Positions 61,924 through 63,056 of a DNA stretch of 64,000 nucleotides are shown here, piece by piece (position 1 is the first letter of the stretch; the number at the start of each line of letters is the position of its first letter). The position numbers and the translations under genes were made by a program. The notes beneath the pieces are model-generated. The model did no database searches. It saw nothing but the letters and a program-made list of their open reading frames with translations, and was not told the origin of the DNA. The DNA is from Methylophaga nitratireducenticrescens (GTDB lineage: Bacteria > Pseudomonadota > Gammaproteobacteria > Nitrosococcales > Methylophagaceae): the NCBI RefSeq assembly GCF_000260985.4, contig NC_017857.3:3029001-3093000 (forward strand), read 5' to 3'.

Positions 61924-62559
61924 ATGTCATCTACCCGTATTTCATTATCCCCCTTTATCCAGTCGATTAAAGACACCATTGATCGGCATGCCGATGAAAT
62001 CGCTCAACTGGATCAGGCTATTGGTGATGGCGATCATCTGATCAACCTGCAACGGGGAATTGAGGCTCTATTAAAAAATATCGATGAAATAGAACAAATG
62101 GAGTTAGCTGCTGCATTGAGCAAAATCGGCATGACACTGATGTCCACCATGGGCGGGGCCTCTGGCTCACTGTTTGGGTCGATGTTTGTCACGATGGGCA
62201 AGCAAGCTAAAGACAAATCGGTAGATTTCGCCAGTATGGCCGATATTTTTCAGGCCGGTGTGGGTTCCGTTAAAGCCCGCGGCAAAGCGGATATCGGTGA
62301 GAAAACCATGCTGGATACTTTGATTCCTGCCGCGGCAAGCCTGCAACAAAGCCTGGTGAATCATGAGGCATTACCAGTAGCACTGGAACAGATGAAAACA
62401 GCGGCGATCGAAGGAATGGAATCCACCAAAGAGATGCTCGCCACCAAAGGCCGCGCTTCATTCCTGGGTGAACGCGCCCGGGGACATATCGATGCCGGCG
62501 CCCGCACCAGCCAGCTGATGCTCTGTGCTATTGCTGATGTGATTATTGAAAATCATTAA
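61924..62559 (+). CDS. dhaL: Dihydroxyacetone kinase L subunit (ADP/ATP-binding, DhaL)
   Basis: Protein of 211 residues, the normal DhaL length. The nucleotide/Mg site is visible: DQAIGDGDHLINLQRG with the acidic triad, and TMGGASGSLFGSM. The TMLDTLIPA and RARGHIDAGARTS segments follow. It phosphorylates dihydroxyacetone bound to DhaK, relevant to methylotroph C1 metabolism and glycerol use. The stop TAA (62557-62559) lies inside a family A repeat. dhaK is convergent rather than co-directional, which is unusual. Confidence 0.92.
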   Translation: MSSTRISLSPFIQSIKDTIDRHADEIAQLDQAIGDGDHLINLQRGIEALLKNIDEIEQMELAAALSKIGMTLMSTMGGASGSLFGSMFVTMGKQAKDKSVDFASMADIFQAGVGSVKARGKADIGEKTMLDTLIPAAASLQQSLVNHEALPVALEQMKTAAIEGMESTKEMLATKGRASFLGERARGHIDAGARTSQLMLCAIADVIIENH

Positions 62560-62585
62560 CCACAGAGACACAGAGGGCACAGAGA
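62556..62585 (+). repeat. Family A repeat, full three-unit copy overlapping the dhaL stop
   Basis: Three CACAGAG units after TTAACC (spacings 8 and 9). The dhaL TAA stop lies at its second to fourth bases. Reads in the same direction as dhaL. Confidence 0.9.
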
Positions 62586-62611
62586 ATAAAAAAAACATAC
62601 AGAATAAAGAG

Positions 62612-62983
62612 TTAATCGTTTAGCAGTCTCACGATGCCTTGTCGCATCATTGGAACATTAAAGTTGAGTAATAAACCATATCTGAGCTTTGCTAGTTTCA
62701 GATAAGTTAAAAGTTGAGCCTTATGGAGTCCTGAGAGGCTCTCTACAGTTTTTAACTCCACGATAACTTCATTTTCAACCAGCAAATCGAGTCGATAGAC
62801 TGAATTTAGTTGCTTTCCTTTGTAGATTATCGGCAGTGAATGCTGACTTGAAAGTTTTAATCCCTTATTTTGCAACTCACTTATAAGGCATTCCTCATAA
62901 ATAGTTTCTAAAAGACCTGGCCCGATTTGACGATGCACCTCAATTGCCGCACCAATAATTTCACCTGTTAACTCATTACTCAT
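62612..62983 (-). CDS. GxxExxY family protein (PD-(D/E)XK nuclease-like)
   Basis: Protein of 123 residues. GLLETIY (23-29) is the family-defining G-x-x-E-x-x-Y. D66 in YRLDLLVENE and E76-L-K78 in VIVELKTVESL fit a PD-(D/E)XK core with a preceding strand. H17 (EVHRQIGPG) is also conserved in my memory of the family. An AAGGAGGAGA ribosome site is 5 bases upstream. No catalytic activity is established for the family. It is the only gene inside the 30-bp inverted family A repeats and lies between dhaL and dhaK, the only clue to its role. Confidence 0.85.
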   Translation of the reverse strand: MSNELTGEIIGAAIEVHRQIGPGLLETIYEECLISELQNKGLKLSSQHSLPIIYKGKQLNSVYRLDLLVENEVIVELKTVESLSGLHKAQLLTYLKLAKLRYGLLLNFNVPMMRQGIVRLLND

Positions 62984-63026
62984 AAGTCTCCTCCTTGAGA
63001 CATTACCATCTAGAAATCTATCACTA

Positions 63027-63056
63027 TCTCTGTGCCCTCTGTGTCTCTGTGGTTAA
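63027..63056 (-). repeat. Family A repeat, full three-unit copy, inverted, abutting the dhaK stop
   Basis: Perfect reverse complement of 62556-62585. Its TTAA outer end is six bases from the dhaK stop (63062), in dhaK sense orientation. Confidence 0.9.

Follow-up and report, generated by a model that had tools for sequence, protein, structure and literature searches.

A small GxxExxY protein and its iterated repeat: a probable matched pair with a possible role in spreading short genomic hairpins

RAYT genes are bounded by REP sequences of their own type, and the types of REP and RAYT match each other. REPINs are short inverted doublets that are capable of forming hairpins and are kept by a vertically inherited chromosomal gene, according to the sections of PMC8049555 that deal with them. 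The system described here, a GxxExxY gene and the repeats that surround it, shares with REPINs and RAYTs (i) dispersed, inverted, hairpin-capable doublets (33/37 neighbouring pairs face inward), and (ii) a gene bounded by its own type of repeat (57/77 loci, drawn from the best 80 of 583). It differs from them in that (i) the protein is a probable PD-(D/E)XK nuclease, whereas RAYT is a tyrosine transposase, (ii) the arm consists of three iterated hexamers, in contrast with the GTAG-tagged palindrome given for REP in the relevant part of PMC3733652, and (iii) a genome can hold up to 15 GxxExxY matches among the matches listed, whereas RAYTs are called single-copy in those sections of PMC8049555. 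Because the tyrosine transposase is absent, the GxxExxY system is not classed as REPIN-RAYT.

Iterated sites and repeat families are also described for Geobacter. In G. bemidjiensis there are palindromic and direct-repeat families, and 12% of the intergenic regions contain multicopy sequences, as stated in the portion of PMC2996986 concerned. The class 1 sites of G. metallireducens are iterated short units, tandem octanucleotides of the form GTTGCTYN, that form opposite-strand pairs at variable distance and are interpreted as regulator binding sites; unlike the arms of GxxExxY genes, they have no protein partner named in the part of PMC2700814 that presents them. Judged by that description only, these sites may be relatives of the GxxExxY arms. 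No link between GxxExxY and repeats was found in the literature searched, with preprints and subscription papers largely outside the search, and the portions of articles covered mention GxxExxY and PF13366 only incidentally.

On the side of the nuclease, QxxxY is the name of a motif in Cas4/RecB-type nucleases, and Cas4 has a four-cysteine iron-sulphur site. The GxxExxY protein appears to share with Cas4, RecB and lambda exonuclease the PD-(D/E)XK fold and the D, ExK and QxxxY motifs. Unlike Cas4, it has only about 120 residues and one cysteine, without the four-cysteine iron-sulphur site; it also has Pfam and NCBIfam families of its own, and repeats that bound its gene. Among the systems known to us, there is none in which a PD-(D/E)XK nuclease alone maintains a population of repeats, and we know of no cognate iterated repeats for the Rpn (YhgA-like) nucleases. 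The latter are recombination-promoting nucleases linked to DNA mobility, as the relevant portion of PMC5350276 puts it; a nuclease linked to DNA mobility is the common ground with the present system, and the Pfam family, PF04754 in Rpn, is a difference.

The window, the whole stretch of 64,000 nucleotides analysed here, comes from Methylophaga nitratireducenticrescens (genome G000) and contains near its right-hand end a single gene between two repeat arms (Table 1). The original prediction had this gene enclosed by perfect 30-bp inverted copies of a repeat, family A, that recurs elsewhere in the window; the inverted identity is exact, and family A recurs at two further places in the window. 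Taken over 37 bp, the two arms show 92% complementarity and are separated by 441 nt (inverted pair I5), and the linkers between the hexamers of the left arm measure 2 and 3 nt. The GxxExxY gene is the sole convincing gene between the arms in the list of open reading frames, and the only GxxExxY match in the whole genome. A homing endonuclease is marked by an insertion that splits the enzyme's recognition site within a conserved gene; the cassettes at the dhaL-dhaK site are intergenic. A chance origin of the arms is ruled out both by their perfect inverted match over 30 bp inside 500 bp of sequence and by the random-window controls given below.

Table 1. Cassette, neighbouring genes and repeats in the window
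Feature	Position	Strand	Remarks
Left arm, family A	62556..62585	+	TTAACC, then three ACAGAG (62562-62567, 62570-62575, 62579-62584)
Right arm	63027..63056	-	matches the left arm without mismatch, inverted
GxxExxY gene, 123 aa	62612..62983	-	probable Cas4/RecB-like PD-(D/E)XK nuclease core (D66, E76, K78, Q90, Y94)
dhaL, left neighbour	61924..62559	+	name from first reading; stop codon overlaps start of left arm
dhaK, right neighbour	63062..64000	-	name from first reading; truncated by the window end
Gene-less composite unit	59843..60335	.	B arm 59843-59871 (+), B arm 60263-60291 (-), A arm 60306-60335 (-)
A repeat (38613-38642) adjoining B repeat (38659-38687)	38613..38687	-	repeat search
B repeat	33613..33641	+	A-like half repeat alongside at 33576-33591
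B repeat	45405..45433	+	repeat search

The window protein matches TIGR04256 (GxxExxY) with 151.5 bits (cut-off 35) and PF13366 with 148.7 bits (cut-off 22); in a scan of eight proteins PF13366 alone rose above its cut-off, and no HUH/Y1 tyrosine transposase was found in them. The sequence signal to Cas4 is weak, PF01930 scoring 12.3 bits, below its cut-off of 22.7. The AlphaFold2 model (mean pLDDT 96.3) has its best structural match in 4ic1 (SSO0001), which we take to be a Cas4: the Foldseek E value of 7.8e-4 is the sole one below 0.001, and the VIA Z is 9.7 with an rmsd of 3.9 over 100 residues. Lambda exonuclease, AdnAB and RecE are the next matches; the restriction-endonuclease-like 3ijm reaches Z 8.2, and Hjc, the Holliday junction resolvase of archaea, Z 7.2, where values below 8 may reflect a common fold only. 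Across 227 proteins, D66, E/D76, K78 and Q90 are kept together in 217, Q90 in 218 and Y94 in 215. The dN/dS is 0.06-0.10 in three close A-type pairs and 0.34, on a dS of 0.06, in one close B-type pair; the remaining pairs are saturated. Since the catalytic set is kept and dN/dS is low, the A-type protein appears to be under selection and to be a probable nuclease, and sequence and model taken together make the GxxExxY protein a probable minimal member of the Cas4/RecB-like PD-(D/E)XK nucleases.

The repeats were first read as two separate families, A and B, a division that does not hold: both belong to a single motif class, and each goes with a protein subfamily of its own. The general arm motif has CC outward, followed by one hexamer of the form RCNNAN three times; family B (ATCCGCAGATTACGCAGATGG...) has the same plan as family A, with a GCAGAT hexamer and longer linkers. 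A scan for any hexamer three times in succession at spacings of 2-4 nt, applied to 30 GxxExxY loci out of a 299-genome phylum sample, returned 243 overlapping matches on both strands vs 2 in shuffled sequence. The matches lie mostly at gene ends, and the hexamer varies among these 30 loci. In the 3.135-Mb window genome, a 16-base pattern of family A occurs 12 times and the reversed-pattern control not once.

Such repeats had been expected near GxxExxY genes of unrelated bacteria, and a count without enrichment over background had been named beforehand as the outcome that speaks against the original prediction. Strong enrichment was found. In the best 80 of 583 GxxExxY loci from a genome-wide scan, which represent about 15 phyla by record titles and include 2 archaeal loci, motif density falls from 3.42/kb in the 150 bp next to the gene to 0.39/kb at 150-300 bp and 0.13-0.23/kb beyond that, out to 10 kb, with 272 matches over all distances vs 28 in shuffles; this sample, selected for its similarity to the window-type protein, is biased to that subfamily. 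Enough flank for tests of the arms was present at 77 of these 80 loci (3 dropped). Inverted arms with an alignment score of at least 28 are found at 58/77 vs 2/312 random windows, and arms at both gene ends at 57/77 vs 15/631 other ORFs on the same contigs and 6/208 ORFs with gaps on both sides, gene-matched controls that rule out arms as a general gene property. One archaeal locus (L070) has both arms and the other (L039) downstream motifs only. Throughout the 299-genome phylum sample, counted from the tables, at least 2 pattern sites occur in 17/38 gene-positive vs 9/261 gene-negative genomes; the gene-flank tests are preferred over this co-occurrence, because 22/38 positives belong to one family (f37, which holds Mariprofundus, as locus L112's genome G358 has its places in common with G048) and the pattern detects one linker class only.

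Protein and repeat vary together. For this comparison, 243 loci (including 97 places among the matches listed and 23 from the phylum and genus searches) were reduced to 241 with the domain, L130 and L235 having an in-frame stop each and giving none, and these to 227 distinct proteins. A correctly oriented motif lies upstream in 145 of the 227, downstream in 148, on both sides in 115 and on either side in 178, vs 35 and 33 for the wrong-orientation control; for the 49 with a triple motif in neither flank, contig ends and strict rules are part of the reason. Where both arms are present, they have the same hexamer at 80/115 loci (shuffled mean 9, maximum 19) and the same linkers at 97/115 (shuffled mean 21, maximum 35). 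Nine loci with disagreeing arms were dropped, including L267, an F-type protein with a final G in one arm, which left 106 confident loci. In a maximum-likelihood tree of their proteins, one branch (support 99/95) parts the hexamers with a final G (72) from those with T, A or C (34), and the G, T and A hexamer-end labels require 5 changes vs a shuffled mean of 30, on a tree that has few columns and in which related loci inherit labels. Paralogs of both sides coexist in 9 genomes and 31/31 follow their own side (within-genome shuffle probability 3.3e-6). A supported clade with ACGAAG and 3/3 linkers comprises proteins of Planctomycetota, Mariprofundus and G354, which holds the Opitutus locus L107. 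The single-flank locus L117 is a misfit, a GLLE-type protein with GCAGAT.

Single residues follow single bases. T or S at residue 93 is paired with a final G in 70/70 cases and N with T, A or C in 30/30, with other residues in six rows; this link separates the two clades and gives 2 supported independent pairs, which is too few. At residue 24 the exceptions are L with a final T in 4 and F with G in 1. At residue 6, T is paired with G at base 4 in 50/50 and A with A in 9/10, and S occurs with either (14 G, 17 A); the independent pairs are 5.5 in the same direction and 0 in the opposite one (median p 0.06), and as evidence of a link from repeated changes these sequence comparisons are suggestive only. 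Bases 1 and 3 change 26 times each on the tree and have weaker links to residues. Thirty loci (L174-L203) had been kept out of the main analysis and were examined later: 23 duplicate proteins already used and 7 are new, of which 5 have a hexamer and 5/5 obey the residue-93 rule, while L195 (N at residue 93) and L174 have no hexamer. On these grounds it is very likely that the protein recognises its cognate repeat DNA. The prediction that it may recognise or mobilise the repeat is thus supported by co-variation in its first part; mobilisation by the protein we only infer.

Several genomes are rich in such genes: among the matches listed, G342, G354, G345 and G328 have 10-15 GxxExxY matches each, and the paralogs of G342 and G354 have several different hexamers.

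Arms that co-descend with the gene through linkage alone would be either what is left, inert, of the ends of an ancient insertion, or operators or terminators of the gene, the unit being inherited whole. That the arms mostly lie within 150 bp of the gene is consistent with this, as is the very stable folding of six hairpins of 62-106 nt (z -5.2 to -13.1), and the units can persist long in place because the gene occupies the same junction in 10/24 genomes of the genus. Linked arms would be free to drift, however, and what is seen, likeness of hexamers and arms within a locus and difference from lineage to lineage, suggests a reader acting in trans. Many copies also lie apart from any GxxExxY gene, and 10/13 gene-negative genomes of the genus have no repeats. 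In the operator form, in which the protein binds the arms for control of its own expression and need not cut them, the dispersed inward-facing units would be left unexplained. We regard linkage or autoregulation alone as unlikely, though it is the alternative that survives best.

The dhaL-dhaK junction was compared across 24 genomes of the genus, 11 with GxxExxY and 19 with dhaL. An identical arrangement everywhere had been set in advance as counting against the cassette; the junctions are occupied, differently occupied or empty. Family A arms with the window-type protein are present in five genomes (G000, G301, G310, G315, G316), and B arms with another protein subfamily in five others (G305, G306, G307, G309, G312; of the GFLE type in G306, G309 and G312). 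A-like remnants lie outside the B cassette in G305, G306, G307 and G309, and almost nothing separates dhaL from dhaK in G299, G300, G302, G303, G304, G313, G318, G319 and G320. The gene has the direction of dhaL in G301, G310 and G312 and the opposite one in the other seven cassettes; the copy in G305 has an in-frame stop. No clean nucleotide-level empty site was found among the sister species, which at roughly 70-90% identity are too divergent for one. The arm-gene-arm unit, the enrichment of its repeat and the differing junctions of relatives bear out the compact cassette that had been proposed.

Gene and repeat also go together in these 24 genomes as wholes. A or B sites occur in 11/11 gene-positive genomes, and neither pattern occurs in 10/13 gene-negative ones (p 1.5e-4, ignoring kinship); the gene-negative genomes with sites are G304 (5 A, 3 B), G308 (68% complete) and G317 (82% complete). 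In G312, where the protein is of the B-type alone, the counts are 0 A and 21 B sites; in G315, where it is of the A-type alone, they are 20 A and 2 B. The window genome likewise holds just the A-type, but its counts are 12 A and 19 B sites, and in the B-type genomes G305, G306 and G309 the A sites are at least as many as the B sites. Because B-type proteins lie within B arms at the junctions of sister species, the B repeats of the window probably mark a B-type protein that is absent from G000.

Gene-less hairpins with inward-facing arms are dispersed in the genomes. Among 150 sites listed from six of eight genomes searched (16/17 for G123; G092 and G129 left out), neighbouring sites at most 300 bp apart are inward-facing in 33/37 cases and span 62-279 bp. 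The units of G228 are near-perfect hairpins. In L164 (G228 C12:39500-48000), a GxxExxY gene is surrounded by several hairpin units, placed between consecutive genes along about 7 kb.

The window genome has nested units, A-B-centre-B'-A', at several places, complete at 25215-25518 and 1618715-1619002; the exceptions are A arms alone at 1607695-1607929 and, at 38613-38687 of the window, B outside A. In the nested A-B units the centre is a third palindromic motif (GTAGGTTGGGTTGA.../...GTAACCCG), with units at L159:10798-11145 and 13203-13583 (G000 C1 1616297-1616644 and 1618702-1619082). B lies inside A at both L159 units, and B occurs alone in some sister species. Two intergenic units compared in seven sister species are common to most of them. 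In the first, both A arms are missing in G312, extra tandem A copies are present in G310 and G301, and G301 is without the right arm; in the second, A is missing in G301, G310 and G312, and the other genomes have both arms. The centre of the first unit is inverted in G305 (score 231 reversed, 37 forward), and that of the second is probably inverted in G306 (scores 80 and 25). Since the units are common to relatives while arms and centres differ, the hairpins are old in place and their contents turn over.

Turnover of this kind leaves room for a different division of labour: an unrelated enzyme, or replication slippage and repair, spreads the repeats, and GxxExxY resolves or removes the hairpins. 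Sites of the A-type pattern do occur in genomes with no GxxExxY match (92 in G138, 17 in G147, 10 each in G068 and G104), ordinary repair could produce both the inverted centres and the tandem amplification in G301 and G308, and the predicted fold resembles those of nucleases that process ends or act in recombination (Cas4, lambda exonuclease, Hjc). Yet hexamer and protein clade correspond, both between phyla and within genomes; the gene itself lies between arms, for which a protein that only removes hairpins would have no need; and the window unit has no other gene. A purely protective role is therefore improbable, slightly more so than linkage. G138, 94% complete with 92 sites and no gene, is a candidate for another propagating enzyme or for a lost gene.

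Descent from a classical DDE insertion sequence, with the repeats as its MITE family and the gene as an acquisition, would account for the terminal inverted repeats, the short gene-less copies and the species difference at one intergenic site, but it is very improbable given no target-site duplication by eye in 18 unit rows of G228 (the only genome of its genus in the sample), the same small gene in such arms in about 15 phyla, and a distribution rare on plasmids (8/72,556 records) and absent from phages (0/50,697). In those 18 rows the outer ends extend the inverted repeat, with no recent empty site; the cassette contains no DDE transposase, its sole gene matching PF13366. The same plasmid and phage records, with no plasmid match above 60% identity, exclude cargo of phages or plasmids; PHROGs gives matches only at E 0.0077 and 0.039, and 5 GxxExxY loci lie in viral contigs. 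A defence system was rejected, PADLOC giving only weak Cas4 matches for the window protein and none for a B-type protein, as was a known RNA family, Rfam having no match at gathering threshold in 59700-63200 of the window.

The reading we favour, and hold to be rather probable as a whole, is that of a GxxExxY nuclease with cognate repeats, in which dependent hairpins are copied or moved via cleavage of the arms: protein and repeat may be a matched pair that spreads short hairpins through genomes. The protein would read the RCNNAN hexamer three times with CC outward, the iterated hexamers being bound probably by several molecules per arm. The arm-gene-arm unit would be the compact element, and the gene-less arm-arm hairpins its dependent derivatives. 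With the arms extruded or single-stranded, the protein would cut the arm, or the extruded hairpin at its base, and host repair after the cut would, at a low rate, flip the centre, add tandem copies or copy the hairpin elsewhere. Cleavage by the protein, and cleavage as the driver of spread, are hypothetical; for a role of the protein in spreading hairpins we see about an even chance. Somewhat short of that, and put forward tentatively, is a new repeat-propagating system consisting of a lone Cas4-like nuclease of about 120 residues and a small recognition code, with host repair copying and flipping the hairpins; its code would link residue 93 to base 6, residue 6 to base 4 and other residues to linker length.

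If true, the REPIN-RAYT way of life would have been invented independently a second time, and this second form would occur in archaea and in about 15 phyla of bacteria. It would give widespread small proteins of unknown role a partner and a testable function, and provide a source for short dispersed repeat families in many unrelated prokaryotes. With many natural matched variants of protein and repeat, the recognition rule is directly testable.

Direct tandem amplification of half-units is seen in G301 (C75:5308-5757, C40:28015-28412 and C70:20383-20636) and in G308 (C4:906-1080), with periods of 217, 191, 119 and 53 bp. In the window, a 137-bp tandem duplication at 37297-37573, its copies 93% identical, adjoins B-type repeats.
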